Shown: positions 3,595 through 47,814 of the stretch, piece after piece
Numbering within the stretch: the stretch's first letter is position 1
Layout of the letters: every line of letters begins with the position of its first letter
Assembly (NCBI GenBank): GCA_016188495.1
Contig: JACPHU010000008.1
Coordinates: forward strand, 1-48,037
Direction of reading: 5' to 3'
DNA length: 48,037 nt
From: Candidatus Uhrbacteria bacterium
GTDB lineage: Bacteria; Patescibacteriota; Patescibacteriia; UBA9934; GWF2-40-263
The notes under the pieces: model-generated
Seen by the model: only the letters and a program-made list of their open reading frames with translations
Told to the model about the DNA's origin: nothing
Databases searched by the model: none
Program-made: the position numbers and the translations under genes

Positions 3595-3711
3595 ACCCTT
3601 CGACTCGTCGAGGACTCCTCGCTCAGGGAATATGATGAAGAAATTTACTCAGTTCACTAAAAATGAATATTCCCTGAGCGTAGGTCAGCACCTGACCGGA
3701 GTCGAAGGGGA
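3595..3711. repeat. REP-like inverted repeat, copy R1
   Basis: cccttcgactc...gctcagggaatat and gaatattccctgagc...gagtcgaagggg in inverted orientation, with nested small hairpins. Confidence 0.75.
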
Positions 3712-3726
3712 TTTTTTAAAACAGAA

Positions 3727-4227
3727 CTAGATTCTGTAATGCAACAACACACTCTGCTGGTTAAGTTTCTTCACTTCAACCAGTGTGAGATTCATTCGAT
3801 CAAATCCTGAGGCAAAGGGAACGCCTGTACCAAATAACACCGGTTCGATCGTTAAATAGAGATCTGTGACAAGACCTGCTTCAAGGAATTGACTGTAAAT
3901 AGACGACCCTCCGGCAATCACAATTGAACGAACTTCCTCTTCTGTCAGTTTATTTACTAACTCCACCACTCTACCACTCCACCACTCCACCCCTTCCATT
4001 TGAGCCATCATTCCCTCCTGTCTGGTCATCACAATCAATCGTCGCTCTTTCAACGGTCGGCCAATGGTCTCAAACGTCTTTCGACCCATAATGACCACAC
4101 CTGCTTCTTTTGTTTTCTGAATAAAAAACTCCAAATCTTCACGACTGGTCCAATCCAAAGATCGCTGGCCCGAAGACTCAGCAATAAATCCGTTTGCCGA
4201 TATAGCAGCAATAAGCCAAATATTCAT
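3727..4227 (-). CDS. folA: Dihydrofolate reductase
   Basis: MNIWLIAAISANGFIA..., VIMGRKTFETIGRPL, IVIAGGSSIYSQFL, typical DHFR motifs. Confidence 0.9.
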   Translation of the reverse strand: MNIWLIAAISANGFIAESSGQRSLDWTSREDLEFFIQKTKEAGVVIMGRKTFETIGRPLKERRLIVMTRQEGMMAQMEGVEWWSGRVVELVNKLTEEEVRSIVIAGGSSIYSQFLEAGLVTDLYLTIEPVLFGTGVPFASGFDRMNLTLVEVKKLNQQSVLLHYRI

Positions 4228-4228
4228 A

Positions 4229-4358
4229 GAGATCTTTGCAAAACTCGCGATCTTGACGTTTTCTGGCGCCCGTCGACCCCACTCTCCCTATTCTGAATAG
4301 GGTTCGCGGGGCTCGACAGCCCGAAAACGTCAATCTCATCGATTTTTGCAAAGATCTC
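4229..4358 (-). repeat. Structured hairpin element E1 (GATGAGA/GATCGC family)
   Basis: Minus strand: gagatctttgcaaaaatc-GATGAGA-ttgacg...cgtcaa-GATCGC-gagttttgcaaagatctc. It fills the thyA-folA gap and its 3' end is 1 nt from the folA ATG. Confidence 0.85.
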
Positions 4359-4364
4359 CATACA

Positions 4365-11214: not shown

Positions 11215-11303
11215 TGAATATTCCCTGAGCCTGTCGAAAAGTTAAAAATTCTATGATCCTTCGACTCCGCTCCCTCTGGTCGCTTCGCTCAGGAAATATT
11301 CAG
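11215..11303. repeat. REP-like inverted repeat, copy R2
   Basis: gaatattccctgagcctgtcgaaaa...ccttcgactccgctc...cgcttcgctcaggaaatattc between miaB stop and miaA start. Confidence 0.75.
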
Positions 11304-14425: not shown

Positions 14426-14779
14426 ATGACACGAGAGGAAGTCATCACACTCGTTCAGGACTCTGATCTGAATGAGACGATTCAAACAGCTCTAATTAAA
14501 CGCATAACAGAAGAAGGACTCACACAGGATGTGTTAGATGCCTTAAAAGAAGCGTTCCAAATGGAGATTGATAAAGGCTTTGATGCCTTAGGTATCGATA
14601 TCTCTGATACGCCTGAGTATAAAGAGAAAGAAGCGGCAATGGTGAAGGAAGTAGAATCAGCTAAAGCTGAGTATGACTCCGCTATGGCTGATATTGATCA
14701 ACAGACTAAGACCTTACAGCAAGAAACCAGCAAAGCACTGGATGAGCTGGAGGCGGAAATTATTAAGGATCAGATTTAA
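14426..14779 (+). CDS. Small helical protein, paralogue A
   Basis: MTREEVITLVQDSDLNETIQTALIKRITEEGLTQDVLDALKEAF..., near-identical to 17251-17598. Confidence 0.85.
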   Translation: MTREEVITLVQDSDLNETIQTALIKRITEEGLTQDVLDALKEAFQMEIDKGFDALGIDISDTPEYKEKEAAMVKEVESAKAEYDSAMADIDQQTKTLQQETSKALDELEAEIIKDQI

Positions 14780-14828: not shown

Positions 14829-14920
14829 CGCCCCTTCGACCGTTCGACAGGCTCACGATCGTCCTGAACTTGTTGAAGGACGACTTCGCTCCCGTGGGTC
14901 GCTTCGCTCAGGGAATATCA
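14829..14920. repeat. REP-like repeat, copy R3
   Basis: ccccttcgaccgttcgacaggctcacgatcgtcctgaacttgttgaaggacgacttcgctcccgtgggtcgcttcgctcagggaatatc. Confidence 0.7.
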
Positions 14921-17250: not shown

Positions 17251-17598
17251 ATGACACGCGAGGAAGTTATCACACTCGTTCAGGACTCTGATCTGAATGA
17301 GACCGTTCAAACAGCTCTGATTAAACGCATCACAGAAGAAGGACTCACACAGGATGTGTTAGATGCCTTAAAAGAAGCGTTCCAAACAGAGATTGATAAA
17401 GGCTTTGAGACGCTAGGGATCGATATCTCTGATACACCTGAATATAAAGAGAAAGAAGCGGCAATGGTGAAGGAAGTAGAAGCGGCAAAAGCCGACTTTG
17501 ATTCTGCCATGGCTGATATTGACCAGCAGACGAAGACCTTACAGCAGGAAACCAGCAAAGCGCTGGATGAGCTGGAGGCAGAGGTGATTAGGGAATAA
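17251..17598 (+). CDS. Small helical protein, paralogue B
   Basis: Near-identical at DNA and protein level to 14426-14779. Confidence 0.85.
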   Translation: MTREEVITLVQDSDLNETVQTALIKRITEEGLTQDVLDALKEAFQTEIDKGFETLGIDISDTPEYKEKEAAMVKEVEAAKADFDSAMADIDQQTKTLQQETSKALDELEAEVIRE

Positions 17599-23934: not shown

Positions 23935-24058
23935 TAGGACTTTCTCATTTGGATGAGATGCGCTGTGCTGGAGCCATAAAAAATCGGAGGCGTATCAGAC
24001 ATACGATGGAGATTTTTTATGGCGAAGCACAAGCAGATCGCCGAATGAGAAAGTCCTA
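23935..24058 (+). repeat. Structured hairpin element E5 (divergent member of the GATGAGA/GATCGC family)
   Basis: taggactttctcatt...tg-GATGAGA-tgc...gca-GATCGC-cg...aatgagaaagtccta; 15-bp perfect outer stem; ends next to the pheT stop codon (24059-24061). Confidence 0.8.
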
Positions 24059-26437
24059 TTATGATCTCATGATAGCACCAAAAGTCTCTTCAAGCACCTG
24101 ACGAATCTTATTGATCTCTGCATCTACCTCTATTGCTTCGAGAGTCCGCTCACTCGATCGAAAAGAAAGGTGTATAGCGAGAGACTTTTTTCCCTCTTCA
24201 ATTCCCTGTCCACGGTACACATCAAATAATTCAAATACTTCGAGAAGTTCAGAGGACTGATGAACCGCTTGTGAAATAGATTCCCATTCTGAACGCTCTT
24301 GAACCAGAAAAGCCAAATCGCGCTTGACGGAAGGAAACAAAGGAAGAGGCTTATAACTTTTACCAAGCGTAAAGATAGAAAGAAGCGCTTCAAAATCCAA
24401 ATCAATCAAAACAGTAACAACATCTATTCCAAACGCTTGTTCAACTCTGCGACTCACTTGCCCAATCACTCCAACCTGTTTACCTAAAACGGTAATAACG
24501 GCAGATCGTCCCGCGTGCCAGCGTGTTCCATCTGTTCCACGTTCAAGCAAGTATTCACGAATACCTGTCTGTCTGAAAAAGCGTTCTAATATCCCTTTGG
24601 CACGAACAAACAACGCTTCCCCGTCTGTACCATAAGATCCAATCACTAACGACAACGACTGTTTGGGAATAGCCGATGTTTGTGCGAGATAAACGGGAGC
24701 CAGCTCAAAAATGTCTGCTTGAGGCAATCTCGCTTGGTTGGCTTCGATAGAAGTCAAAAGGCTAGGCACCAGGCTTGTTCGCATGTACTCCTGTTCGCTA
24801 TTTAAAGGATTGCGAAGCTTCACGGCTGTCTGAATATCGATTCCGTACTTTTCTAATTGGGACTCCGAAACGAATGAATAACTATAAGATTCTGAAAGAC
24901 CAGCACTAGCAAGCAGATGCTTTACTCTGCGCTCCCACACCAAACTCGGATTGGAAAACGCTTGCGGCAATTGGCCAGAAGGAAGCTGTGAGGGAAATTG
25001 GTCATATCCGTATACGCGTGCAATTTCCTCAACAAAGTCGACACTGGCTTCGATATCATGATCACGCCAGTAAGGTACAGCGACCTGATTTTTTTGTATT
25101 GTAAATCCTAGTCGTTTTAAAATGGCGATCTGTTCTTTTTTCGGCAGCTCAATTCCCATGAGGCGATTTGCTGCCTTATCATCAAACGGAAGAACAAGGG
25201 GTTGATACTCTTGAGCACACTCATCAAATACCTTGGACACCACTTCGCCTCCGGCAACCTCTTTAATAAGTTCAACAGCGCGTGCAAGCGCAGGTTTAAG
25301 AGCTTGGGTTGATAATCCCTTTTCAAATAACAATTGGGAATCAGAATACAAATTTAACGCCCGAGCGGTTCGACGAACAGAAACAGAATCAAACGCAGCA
25401 CATTCAATCACCACTCTTGTTGTTGCTTGTGTAGTTCCTGTAGAGAGCCCTCCCATGACCCCGGCAACCGCAACCGGCTTTTTTGCATCCGCAATGACCA
25501 ACATTTCATCAGTAAGCTCGTAGGTTTTTTTATCCAGAGCCTCAAACGTCTCCCCTTTGAGTGCACGACGTACCACGATTTTTTGTCCTTCAAGCGTATC
25601 GGCATCAAACGTATGCAATGGCTGACCGTATTCGTGCAAAATGTAATTGGTGATATCGACCAGATTATTGATCGGCCTGTGGCCCGCCAAAAGCAACCGT
25701 TTTTGCAGCCACCAAGGAGAAGGACCGACAACCACTCCATCGATCACCACAGCGGTATAGCGAGGACATAAAGAAGACTCCTGTACCTCAACAGAAAACC
25801 CGGCATCCCATTCAACCCTTTTTAATTTCGTTGCTTTCCAAGTAAACCTGTCTTGGGTCACAGCCGCTCCTTCGCGCGCTTGGCCGATGACAGATTTACA
25901 ATCCGGTCGATTGCTCGTGACTTCGATATCAAAAATGACATCGTCCAAATCCAAGGCCTCGGCAATAGGTGTTCCTGCTTGTGCATTGGTAATGACAGAG
26001 ATATCCCAGATATCTTTTTCCCCTGCAGGTAACTTCTCAAATCCAACTTCTGCAGAGGCACAAATCATGCCGTAACTTTCTACTCCTCGGATCTTGGTTT
26101 CCTGAAGTTCAATTAAATCCCCTTCCCCATGCCAACGCACCCGAGCCCCGGGCAATGCCACAACAACTTTTTGGCCTTCAGATAAATTCTCTCCTCCGCA
26201 AACGATCTCGACCTGCTTGGCTCCAATATCAACAACCGCCACACGAAGCTTGTCCGCATTTGGATGGGTCTTCACCTCAAGAACGTCACCAACCACCATC
26301 TGAGCAAAACGTTCAGCCACACGATCAATGACTTCCACAGAATTCCCAGAAGCGGTCGTGCGTTTAGCAAATTCTTCAGGCGAAAGATCTGTCTCCAGAT
26401 ACTCTTTCATCCAGTTGTAAGAAATAAGAATGTTCAT
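24059..26437 (-). CDS. pheT: Phenylalanyl-tRNA synthetase beta subunit
   Basis: MNILISYNWMKEYLETDLSPEEFAKR; tRNA-binding domain; PFPSVKRDLAFLV-type C-terminus. Confidence 0.96.
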   Translation of the reverse strand: MNILISYNWMKEYLETDLSPEEFAKRTTASGNSVEVIDRVAERFAQMVVGDVLEVKTHPNADKLRVAVVDIGAKQVEIVCGGENLSEGQKVVVALPGARVRWHGEGDLIELQETKIRGVESYGMICASAEVGFEKLPAGEKDIWDISVITNAQAGTPIAEALDLDDVIFDIEVTSNRPDCKSVIGQAREGAAVTQDRFTWKATKLKRVEWDAGFSVEVQESSLCPRYTAVVIDGVVVGPSPWWLQKRLLLAGHRPINNLVDITNYILHEYGQPLHTFDADTLEGQKIVVRRALKGETFEALDKKTYELTDEMLVIADAKKPVAVAGVMGGLSTGTTQATTRVVIECAAFDSVSVRRTARALNLYSDSQLLFEKGLSTQALKPALARAVELIKEVAGGEVVSKVFDECAQEYQPLVLPFDDKAANRLMGIELPKKEQIAILKRLGFTIQKNQVAVPYWRDHDIEASVDFVEEIARVYGYDQFPSQLPSGQLPQAFSNPSLVWERRVKHLLASAGLSESYSYSFVSESQLEKYGIDIQTAVKLRNPLNSEQEYMRTSLVPSLLTSIEANQARLPQADIFELAPVYLAQTSAIPKQSLSLVIGSYGTDGEALFVRAKGILERFFRQTGIREYLLERGTDGTRWHAGRSAVITVLGKQVGVIGQVSRRVEQAFGIDVVTVLIDLDFEALLSIFTLGKSYKPLPLFPSVKRDLAFLVQERSEWESISQAVHQSSELLEVFELFDVYRGQGIEEGKKSLAIHLSFRSSERTLEAIEVDAEINKIRQVLEETFGAIMRS

Positions 26438-38639: not shown

Positions 38640-39779
38640 ATGAAATATCACAGACGAATTATCGCCGTTATTCTTTTTTCGGTTATCACCGTTGGTTTAT
38701 TATTTGCTAAACCGATCGTTGCTCAGACATCCACGAGCGCCCCGAAACTCCTTACTCCTACACTCCAAGTAGATATCCCAGGTGTGAAATTCAGCGAGGG
38801 AAAAATCGAGGGAAAAATACTCAAAGTAAACTATCTCGGAGATTACATCGCGGGTATTTATAAGTATCTGATTGGTATTTCCACCACCATTGCGATTGTG
38901 ATGCTCATGATCGGAGGACTGCAATGGTCTTTAGGGGCTTCTTCTCAAGAAAATATTTCCAAAGCAAAAAAACGAATAAACAATGCGGTGATTGGTCTGG
39001 TTTTGCTCTTAAGCGTATACACGATCCTTTTTATCGTTAATCCAAATCTCACCTTTTTAAAAACCCCTGAAATCCAAGTCATCCAATACGCGAATCTTGA
39101 ATCCGTTATCACGACAGCGATCGAGGAATGCAAGGATGTAAAAGGAATCGTACAAAAATGTTCTGCAACCACTCTTAAAAATCCTTCGGGATGGAGTGCG
39201 GATCTGACAAATATCGTCAACTCTGTTGCCACAACGCAAGGCGTTGATGCTATTTTACTGGCCACGCATATTCAAAAAGAAACATCAGGAAATATCAATT
39301 ATTCTCGCAATATCGGACCTTGCGGAGAAATCGGCATTTCCCAATTCATGCCAACCACGTTTGAATCCATTGTTGGACAGCAATGCTGTACCAGTATGGC
39401 AGCCAAAAATGCAAGCAACAGGGAAAGCTATGGAAAACTGTGCGATAACGGAGCTGTCGATGCCTGGCCGCCAAAAACTTCGGATATTCCACATTGCAAC
39501 ACCAGTATTTGCGGAAACTGCCAAGTCGCCATGACATCCTGTATTGATTATTTCGATACATCAAAACCAAACGGCGTTCAAAATAGCGTCACAGCAACCG
39601 CAAAACTGATCAAATACAATCTTTCCAACGGAAGAATCGCGGGAGATGTTGCTTTGGCTATGTGCGCCTATAACGGATCCGGCAAACAGGCAGCCGCGTA
39701 CGCCCAAGAAGCGGCAAAAATCTACGAAGACTTTTGTAAAAATTCCGGTGGAACCTTAGGGGGAAGCATCTCTCCATAA
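38640..39779 (+). CDS. TrbC/VirB2-like pilin domain fused to SLT-like lytic transglycosylase domain
   Basis: Signal peptide; GISTTIAIVMLMIGGLQWSLGA..INNAVIGLVLLLSVYTILFIVNP; ATHIQKETSGNINYSRNIGPCGEIGISQFMPTTF. ATG at 38640 preferred. Confidence 0.82.
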   Translation: MKYHRRIIAVILFSVITVGLLFAKPIVAQTSTSAPKLLTPTLQVDIPGVKFSEGKIEGKILKVNYLGDYIAGIYKYLIGISTTIAIVMLMIGGLQWSLGASSQENISKAKKRINNAVIGLVLLLSVYTILFIVNPNLTFLKTPEIQVIQYANLESVITTAIEECKDVKGIVQKCSATTLKNPSGWSADLTNIVNSVATTQGVDAILLATHIQKETSGNINYSRNIGPCGEIGISQFMPTTFESIVGQQCCTSMAAKNASNRESYGKLCDNGAVDAWPPKTSDIPHCNTSICGNCQVAMTSCIDYFDTSKPNGVQNSVTATAKLIKYNLSNGRIAGDVALAMCAYNGSGKQAAAYAQEAAKIYEDFCKNSGGTLGGSISP

Positions 39780-39784
39780 ATATG

Positions 39785-39913
39785 GAGATCTCTGAAAAAT
39801 TTGATGAGATTGCCTTGAACGGGCTGTTGAACCCCGAGAACCCTACTCATTGTAGGGAGAACGGGGTCAACGGGCGCCCGTGAAAGGCAAGATCGCAAAT
39901 TTTTCAGAGATCT
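39785..39913 (+). repeat. Structured hairpin element E2 (GATGAGA/GATCGC family)
   Basis: agatctctgaaaaattt-GATGAGA-ttgcct-TGAA-CGGGC...GCCCG-TGAA-aggcaa-GATCGC-aaatttttcagagatct; 17-bp perfect outer stem immediately followed by the radA ATG (39914). Confidence 0.9.
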
Positions 39914-41224
39914 ATGTATATCTGTACCAATTGCGATGCTCAATCCCCCAAATGGTCTGGCAAATGCCTGGAGTGTGACAAATGGGGTACGCTGATTGAA
40001 GAATCTGTAGAGACGAACAAACGTTCGTCTCTTTCGTCTATAAAAGCAAAACCCGTACAAAGCAAACCGTTAAAACAAATCGCTCAACAAAATGAAACGG
40101 ACCGAATCCTCACGCAAGATAAAGAAGTTGACAGGGTTTTAGGAGGTGGAATCGTTCGCGGGTCTCTGGTTCTTCTCTCTGGAGAACCCGGCATTGGAAA
40201 ATCAACGCTTGTGGCGAGCATCGCTGGATCCATCAATGGTGACGTGCTTTATATTTCAGGAGAAGAGTCTCCTACCCAGCTTGCCTCACGATTTGATCGT
40301 CTCAAGACAGACATAAACCATGTTCGATTCCTAGAACCGTTTCCTGTGGAAACGCTCGTCGCGACTCTTGAAAAAGAACAGCCGATGCTTGCGATTATTG
40401 ATTCTGTTCAAACGCTCACGTCGTCCTTGATAGAAAGTACCTCTGGAACCCCCACGCTTGTACGCTATGCCACCGCTCTTTTGCTTGAGGTAGCCAAACG
40501 TACAAATATCTCCATCCTGTTGGTTGGCCAAGTCACCAAGGATGGAACCGTGGCAGGACCAAAGACCCTAGAACATTTGGTGGATGTGGTAATGAATCTT
40601 GAAGGCGATCCGGTCCATAGTTACCGTTTGCTTCGAGCTTCCAAAAACCGCTTTGGTGCGACCGATGAAATAGGCGTCTTTGAAATGACAGAAACGGGAC
40701 TTCTGGCGGTAGAGAACCCTTCAGAACGTTTCCTTGCAGAGCGTTCCCCTACCCCAGGATCAGTCATCGCCGCCACGGCCGAAGGATCGCGCGTGTTTTT
40801 GGTAGAAGTCCAGGCGCTGGTGGAACAAAGCTTTTATGGAACCCCCGTTCGTCGCGCGTCTGGTTTTGATCAAAATCGTTTGCAAATGCTCGTCGCGATC
40901 CTTTCAAAACGAGCAGGTCTTAAATTGGGAGACAAAGACGTGTATATCAACGTGATCGGCGGAATGTCCCTCCAAGAACCTGCGGCTGATCTGGCCATCT
41001 GTGCAGCCATTACCCATGCCTATAAAAATAAAACGGACACTTCCGCAACTGTGTACATGGGTGAAGTAGGCTTAGGAGGCGAGATCAGAACCGCCCCTCT
41101 CACGCAACGAAGACTCATGGAAGCTCTCAGGCTCGGAATCTCCTGTGCCGTCATCCCTCTCAAAACAAAACTGAAAAAAATCGAAATGGAACTAAAACAG
41201 ATAAGCACAATAAAGGAAATATAA
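39914..41224 (+). CDS. radA: DNA repair protein RadA
   Basis: CTNCDAQSPKWSGKCLECDKWGTL zinc finger; GEPGIGKSTLVASIAG; KNRFGATDEIGVFEM; LonP-like C-terminus. Confidence 0.96.
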   Translation: MYICTNCDAQSPKWSGKCLECDKWGTLIEESVETNKRSSLSSIKAKPVQSKPLKQIAQQNETDRILTQDKEVDRVLGGGIVRGSLVLLSGEPGIGKSTLVASIAGSINGDVLYISGEESPTQLASRFDRLKTDINHVRFLEPFPVETLVATLEKEQPMLAIIDSVQTLTSSLIESTSGTPTLVRYATALLLEVAKRTNISILLVGQVTKDGTVAGPKTLEHLVDVVMNLEGDPVHSYRLLRASKNRFGATDEIGVFEMTETGLLAVENPSERFLAERSPTPGSVIAATAEGSRVFLVEVQALVEQSFYGTPVRRASGFDQNRLQMLVAILSKRAGLKLGDKDVYINVIGGMSLQEPAADLAICAAITHAYKNKTDTSATVYMGEVGLGGEIRTAPLTQRRLMEALRLGISCAVIPLKTKLKKIEMELKQISTIKEI

Positions 41225-46921: not shown

Positions 46922-46998
46922 TGGTGCACTCGGCAGGATTTGAACCTGCGACCCTCAGCTCCGCAAGCTGATGCTCTATCCAGCTGAGCTACGAGTGC
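46922..46998 (-). tRNA. tRNA-Arg (anticodon GCG), CCA encoded
   Basis: GCACTCGTAGCTCAGCTGGATAGAGCATCAGCTTGCGGAGCTGAGGGTCGCAGGTTCGAATCCTGCCGAGTGCACCA; 7-nt anticodon loop TTGCGGA. Confidence 0.93.
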
Positions 46999-47000
46999 AT

Positions 47001-47130
47001 AGAAATCTTTTTAAAATCGCGATCTTGCCTTTCACGGGCACCCAGGCACCCCGGAAGACGTACGTTTGGGTACGCCTTCCGGGGCTGCCAGCCCGTTCAA
47101 GGCAATCTCATCGATTTTAAAAAGATTTCT
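47001..47130 (-). repeat. Structured hairpin element E3 (GATGAGA/GATCGC family)
   Basis: Minus strand: agaaatctttttaaaatc-GATGAGA-ttgcct...aggcaa-GATCGC-gattttaaaaagatttct; 18-bp perfect outer stem, 2 nt upstream of tRNA-Arg. Confidence 0.9.
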
Positions 47131-47181
47131 TACTTATAAGTTTCAAAATTTTCAAGAGACCATATAACAAATCATCCGAAT

Positions 47182-47311
47182 GACGTTGTTCCAAAACTCG
47201 ATGAGATCAACTTGAACGGGCTGCTGAGCCCCGAGAACCCTACTCAGAGTAGGGAGAACGGGGTCAGCGGGCGCCCGTGAAAGTTGAGATCGCGAGTTTT
47301 GGAAGAACGTC
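47182..47311 (+). repeat. Structured hairpin element E4 (GATGAGA/GATCGC family)
   Basis: gacgttgttccaaaactc-GATGAGA-tcaact-TGAA-CGGGC...GCCCG-TGAA-agttga-GATCGC-gagttttggaagaacgtc; one mismatch in the outer stem. Confidence 0.9.
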
Positions 47312-47316
47312 GAATG

Positions 47317-47814
47317 TCACAGTTTATACAGTCTCCTAACCGAATCCGTCAAGCTTTCTTCTGTTCGTTCAATGTTCTCTAGACAAAATGGCAAGAGAAT
47401 TTCACGGACGAGGTTTGGGTCTATATCTTCAAGGGGAATGGTCAACAACGGCTGCCAGGGAGAGCGAAACTTGAGATATAGAATTTTGATATGAGGGGGT
47501 TCATAGGCAATAGAAAAATCTTTAATGGCCTCAAAATCATAATACGTATCATCTACGACCACGCCTGTATTGGTAATAATCACCGGGACACGTTCGGGCG
47601 GAATAAACGTAGAGAGCGCGGTGATGACTCCAACCATCAGAATAATAACAGCGAAAAGAAAATTCGCCGTAGCAACACCATAGATAATAAATACCACACC
47701 CAACACAATCGCAATGGCATACCAGCGTTTTGAACGCTGGTGCGCAGGATACTCGTCTATCTCCCAATCAAGTTGGGGTTCACCGATATGAATCTGTGGC
47801 TCCACGGCTTCCAT
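47317..47814 (-). CDS. Hypothetical membrane protein (two TM segments, PH-like C-terminal part)
   Basis: 165-aa ORF with hydrophobic hairpin YAIAIVLGVVFIIYGVATANFLFAVIILMVGVITALS. Confidence 0.7.
   Translation of the reverse strand: MEAVEPQIHIGEPQLDWEIDEYPAHQRSKRWYAIAIVLGVVFIIYGVATANFLFAVIILMVGVITALSTFIPPERVPVIITNTGVVVDDTYYDFEAIKDFSIAYEPPHIKILYLKFRSPWQPLLTIPLEDIDPNLVREILLPFCLENIERTEESLTDSVRRLYKL

Follow-up and report, generated by a model that had tools for sequence, protein, structure and literature searches.

The stretch of 48,037 nt from a Candidatus Uhrbacteria genome that was analysed here (the window) contains long intergenic hairpins whose helices vary in sequence but remain paired around an unchanging internal loop. 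This raises the question of whether the hairpins are a structured RNA maintained by selection on its fold or a repeat that has spread as mobile DNA. The sequence-only reading had placed five such hairpins in the window, had attributed their changing stems to selection on a folded molecule and not to simple repeat spread, and had named a non-autonomous palindromic element as an alternative. The five copies and the tRNA gene next to one of them are as follows:

4229..4358 (-), copy 1: IS1182-type ends (GAGATCTTTGCAAAA), between the thymidylate synthase and DHFR genes
23935..24058 (+), copy 2: IS701-type ends (TAGGACTTTCTCATTT) and a divergent apex
39785..39913 (+), copy 3: IS1182-type ends, between an ORF ending at 39779 and radA starting at 39914
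46922..46998 (-), tRNA-Arg(GCG) gene, immediately following copy 4
47001..47130 (-), copy 4: tRNA-leader form, ending 2 nt before tRNA-Arg(GCG) on the same strand
47182..47311 (+), copy 5: IS1182-like ends (variant GACGTTGTTCCAAAACTC)

Fold, covariation and distribution of the hairpin

All five copies were confirmed at these positions and on these strands, each as one long hairpin with a folding energy of -68 to -85 kcal/mol. The element is about 130 bp long, has no open frame of note and is without a transposase gene. The pattern GATGAGAT...AGATCGC at the correct spacing occurred five times in the window, compared with 0.02 occurrences expected from shuffles. The GATGAGA/GATCGC loop was identical in all five copies, as had been reported, and its columns were invariant or almost so across 29 genomic copies; the reading of it as a 7x6 loop was refined to a bulged A, a short UGA/UCG helix and a tandem G.A (AGAU/AGAU), which is followed by further tandem G.A modules (UGAA/UGAA and AGAA/AGAA). 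A kink-turn or box C/D reading of the loop was dropped because bases on each of its strands are unpaired or pair weakly. The outer stems varied between copies but paired, and the next helices covaried as claimed.

Covariation was judged against shuffled and partner-slid controls and was very strong. For the 29 genomic copies, the score was 0.430, whereas shuffling lowered it to 0.155 and sliding the partners left no more than 0.106; in the same copies, 93.2% of the cells were paired (78.4% when shuffled), and both sides had changed in 36 of the 52 pairs. The interior of one genomic copy had shrunk to a 72-nt hairpin. Among the non-Watson-Crick cells on the GATGAGA strand, G-U outnumbered A-C by 48:9 in set A1 and by 63:24 in set A3, counts that include related sequences, and in the distant set the ratio was 33:26, with no clear bias. 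Double-stranded DNA alone would not give a bias of G-U over A-C, which supports the view that the fold matters on the GATGAGA strand.

The family proved larger than the five members first counted. Blastn of the source genome found the element in more than 40 places, and a covariance model built from 29 copies of this genome (R1) located about 72 distinct places in its 1.19 Mb, some of them with other palindromes nested in the apex. The search of relatives that had been proposed also yielded many further copies: R1 matched 49 of 96 relatives, all belonging to the same family or order, and gave no match in the other sampled families of the class among these 96. A second model, R2, built from 32 diverse copies (covariation score 0.676, compared with 0.171), matched 23 of 380 genomes from across the phylum. 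These weaker matches in distant Patescibacteria retained the pairing and a GATGARR...TCGC-like loop in noisier alignments, and they are probable members of the family. Exact copies of a 22-base stretch of the core were present in Candidatus Uhrbacteria and in other Patescibacteria or bacterial MAGs. The impression that no described RNA family is involved agreed with an Rfam 15 scan of the window and the tRNA loci, in which no family exceeded the gathering cut-off for the hairpins; likewise, such elements in Patescibacteria or Uhrbacteria were not found described in the open-access literature. These counts rest on draft assemblies and on gene contexts assigned with a simple gene caller, and related copies enter them separately.

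Mobility and insertion-sequence ends

Four of the window copies lie between short direct duplications: CATA at 4225-4228 and 4359-4362 for copy 1 (TATG on the element strand), TTATG on both sides of copy 2, TATG at 39781-39784 and 39913-39916 for copy 3, and GAAT at 47178-47181 and 47312-47315 for copy 5. The PheT gene (24059-26437, -) has its stop codon directly at copy 2, and an ORF at 47317-47814 (-) has its own at the right end of copy 5. Among 127 distinct copies away from tRNA genes, a 4-nt duplication was found at 36 and a 5-nt duplication at 26, compared with 3.1 and 0.9, respectively, expected from mismatched flank pairs; in the class with IS1182-type ends, duplications flanked 24 of 102 copies (0.99 expected). 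Empty sites were also recovered. In the congeners G002, G003 and G005, only 4-9 nt separate a stop codon from the start ATG of radA, where the window reads TATG-hairpin-TATG; in addition, G063 and G059 have both flanks of the hairpin at L130:13891 (G009) but not the hairpin itself. Within genus g5, hairpins from different genomes were up to 98% identical, which indicates recent activity there.

PF01609 transposases were searched for in relatives, and an unbiased scan for inverted repeats then revealed three insertion sequences (ISs) whose terminal inverted repeats (TIRs) of 15-18 bp are the outer stems of hairpins:

L208, IS1182-like: ends GAGACCACTGCAAAACTC; nearest NCBIfam family IS1182, the copy frameshifted
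L211 and L212, IS982-like: ends CTGTGAATTACGAAA; nearest to IS982
L213, IS701: ends TAGGACTTTCTCATTT; above the NCBIfam cut-off

Two of the three assignments, IS1182-like and IS982-like, fell below the NCBIfam cut-offs. The best stem matches were 17/18, 14/15 and 16/16 for the IS1182, IS982 and IS701 types, respectively, and were never reached in 100 shuffles; copy 2 of the window agreed with the L213 (IS701-family) TIR at 16 of 16 positions. The ends of eight other ISs from the same transposase search did not match the stems. The length of the duplication differed between the end classes, being 4 bp for the IS1182 type (5 bp if the shared end base is included) and 5 bp (TTATG, ATTAA) for the IS701 type. 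For the IS982 type, 8 bp were readable at one hairpin (TCCACAAG, C20:1704 of the source genome) and at the IS itself (CTAGTAAG, L211), a tentative reading from two single cases.

The IS1182-like (L208), IS982-like (L212) and IS701 (L213) elements come from the same bacterial family and share their TIRs with the hairpins, but they carry transposase genes and are without the core, which was searched for in L208, L211, L212 and L213 and gave no match. Because the core is absent from the ISs, the hairpins are not internal deletions of one IS, and derivation from a single IS was rejected, as one core occurs with several kinds of ends. A search for TIR pairs of a full IS in the source genome (a draft) and in genus g5 gave hairpin-sized pairs only, and the PF01609 search likewise gave no complete IS with such ends in the source genome.

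Since the outer stems of the dispersed copies are the TIRs of three ISs, much of the covariation in these stems does not reflect compensation in RNA; it is largely the result of one core carrying different IS ends. Caution is needed in general, as stem covariation among repeat copies can arise from the exchange of transposon ends. The objection to simple repeat spread therefore failed for the dispersed copies, with their target-site duplications, empty sites and IS-end stems, for which the non-autonomous palindromic element was the apt description. These hairpins are short and non-autonomous, share TIRs with autonomous ISs, show target-site duplications and have empty sites in relatives, as miniature inverted-repeat transposable elements (MITEs) do, and on this evidence most copies are miniature transposable elements.

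Two further observations on repeats were made. Another MITE with the same IS1182-type ends (GAGACCGTTGAAAAACTC) and a different interior was present in five copies (L050:1589, L051:2025, L052:292, L053 and L054:1888), with duplications such as GGATA, AACTT and CCCGA. In G027, contigs C22, C38, C41 and C50 (L170-L173) start within two 97-nt repeats ending in GAGACCGTTG, which are likely to be ends of a multi-copy IS that the assembly collapsed. No full IS was obtained for the repeat end in L171; another collapsed repeat end of G027 aligned to the left end of the IS1182-like element in L208.

Hairpins at tRNA genes

In the source genome, 15 of the 72 copies stop 0-7 nt short of a tRNA gene; all 15 lie on the tRNA strand with the GATCGC side facing the tRNA, and fewer than one would be expected by chance if about 50 tRNA genes and 10% intergenic DNA are assumed. 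The tRNA population comprised 34 copies located 0-7 nt upstream of tRNA genes, including 47001-47130 of the window, and a 4-nt duplication was found at 2 of the 34 (0.8 expected). The copies that the model alone found in relatives had the same arrangement. A pattern search of relatives for the GATCGC-to-tRNA arrangement gave 62 matches, compared with 16 for the reversed control; these matches were not counted as evidence on orientation because they had been selected for it. The arms of the tRNA copies were the best paired (95.8%), yet these copies were the most diverged, with 47% identity between the 5' arms of different copies.

Some tRNA junctions were occupied in more than one genus. Hairpins were found at the tRNA-Leu(CAA)/tRNA-Met junction in G027, G002 and G026, and at the junction of a conserved gene with tRNA-Arg(GCG) in the window, G008 and G032, where the stems differ and are paired. 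Between hairpins at shared junctions in different genera, 5 to 11 of the 18 stem positions had changed on both arms and were paired in both. Selection on the fold, as proposed in the sequence-only reading, is therefore supported at these loci. The tRNA-Arg(GCG) junction had no hairpin in G002, G003 and G005, which means that loss or repeated gain also occurs. Two copies were located inside tRNA/rRNA operons, where they are very likely transcribed: the copy in L215 separates 16S rRNA from tRNA-Ile, and the copy in L294 separates tRNA-Ile from tRNA-Ala. Some tRNA copies bear IS-type ends (C25:24531, C15:154427 and C12:18129 of the source genome).

Among neighbouring genes on the same strand, the element was mostly antisense (23:4 in the source genome and 20:12 in relatives), which is the reverse of its orientation at tRNAs. 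Both orientations would fit an RNA hairpin of the GATGAGA strand that attracts cleavage: ahead of a tRNA, such cleavage may do no harm or may be of use, whereas within an mRNA it would be damaging.

Two other arrangements were observed near tRNA genes. In the source genome (C2:1899-2239) and in G004 (L126:981-1280), two hairpins flank one tRNA gene, and the GATCGC end of each faces it. In L120 (G003) and L122 (G005), the interval from the g165 homologue to tRNA-Arg(GCG) contains a truncated tRNA-like sequence (GTGGCTCAGTTGGATCTGAGACAGATC), at the place where the window has two hairpins.

Origin of the family and comparison with known elements

We consider it likely that the hairpins are a structured, IS-mobilised family with a conserved folded core, part of which is kept as a transcribed tRNA leader. 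The sequences show that dispersed copies moved into intergenic DNA and left short target-site duplications, and that the same core lies between the TIRs of at least three unlike ISs, nearest to IS1182, IS982 and IS701, whose transposases would move the hairpin in trans. The fold of the core on the GATGAGA strand would be needed at some step, as RNA or as single-stranded DNA. The tRNA form, as seen at the loci compared, has one orientation, is nearly free of duplications, occupies the same loci across genera and keeps its pairing during sequence turnover. There, the hairpin would be transcribed as a pre-tRNA leader or spacer and may be tolerated or used in processing of the primary transcript, with RNase III and RNase P as candidate enzymes. 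The tRNA form may have been recruited from the mobile form or may have given rise to it. A wider proposal, which we put forward only tentatively and regard as doubtful, is a phylum-wide structured RNA element with two forms, namely a conserved hairpin fused to the 5' leaders of tRNA genes and rRNA-operon tRNAs, and a mobile form carried by unrelated transposases because its terminal repeats have changed again and again; if true, a structural RNA module would be switching transposon vehicles.

The order of events may also have been different. It is quite conceivable, although we lean against it, that a structured RNA family, acting in cis as a pre-tRNA or rRNA leader element, is primary, and that the dispersed copies are accidental captures between IS ends. 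The compensatory changes between hairpins of several genera at shared tRNA loci, the scarcity of duplications at tRNA copies, the GATCGC-to-tRNA arrangement in many relatives (62 vs 16), the copies at 16S rRNA/tRNA-Ile (L215) and tRNA-Ile/tRNA-Ala (L294), and a fold constraint specific to the GATGAGA strand would all agree with this order; however, most copies of the source genome lie away from tRNAs, the antisense position prevails among same-strand genes (23 vs 4), and some tRNA copies have IS-type ends. We find it rather unlikely that the copies are nothing but ordinary decayed MITEs, functionless everywhere and paired owing to young age and arm-to-arm template-switch correction. The duplications, empty sites and IS ends are those of such elements, and in a dense genome survivorship would be expected to leave copies in intergenic DNA behind stop codons; much of the closeness to stop codons can be put down to survival in small gaps, so that targeting need not be invoked. 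Template switching between the hairpin arms alone could keep them complementary, and gene conversion between arms may contribute. Such correction should, however, also erase the conserved mismatches of the invariant loop, and the tRNA copies are the most diverged yet best paired, G-U exceeds A-C, and the uniform orientation at tRNAs is the part that survivorship leaves unexplained.

A REP/BIME-type element moved on single-stranded hairpins by a Y1 (RAYT or IS200-IS605) transposase is disfavoured and seems highly improbable. REP/BIME elements with RAYT are also intergenic palindromes in many copies, with conserved irregularities on one strand, but the hairpins described here are longer and have target-site duplications and the TIRs of DDE-type transposases, whereas Y1 transposases are not known to leave target-site duplications. 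The REP-like palindromes in the source genome are separate insertions nested in the hairpins. A second palindrome of this appearance (CCCGCCCGA..TCGGGCGGG, also CCTGCCGGTAGGCAGG types) is inserted in the apex or stem of copies L020, L023, L027, L028 and L055 and looks REP-type.

The family resembles ERIC, Correia (CREE) and QMITE2, which are likewise short, non-autonomous, intergenic, multi-copy hairpins with TIRs and short duplications. To our knowledge, each of these has been described with one set of ends. Compared by description, the present family differs from them in having a hairpin core with the ends of at least three IS families, conserved tandem G.A loops, covarying helices and a tRNA-leader population. 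RNase III cleaves the transcripts of Correia elements, insertion of ERIC exposes an RNase E site, and QMITE2 is found mostly in 3' UTRs; the review on these three elements nowhere mentions tRNA (PMC10969869). An element whose identity lies in a folded core, with ends taken from unlike IS families, would change how MITEs are defined and detected. In addition, the shared tRNA loci, occupied in different genera by hairpins with different paired stems, offer a ready test of tRNA-leader hairpin function in Patescibacteria, which are hardly open to manipulation.

Two other repeats were noted in the window. The ORFs at 14426-14779 and 17251-17598, 2.8 kb apart, are 91% identical over their first 300 nt and matched no transposase or other confident Pfam family. 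Three imperfect GCTCCCTCTGGTCGCTTCGCTCAGGGAATAT-type repeats, at 3596-3633, 11262-11299 and 14881-14918, look like fragments of another mobile palindrome.
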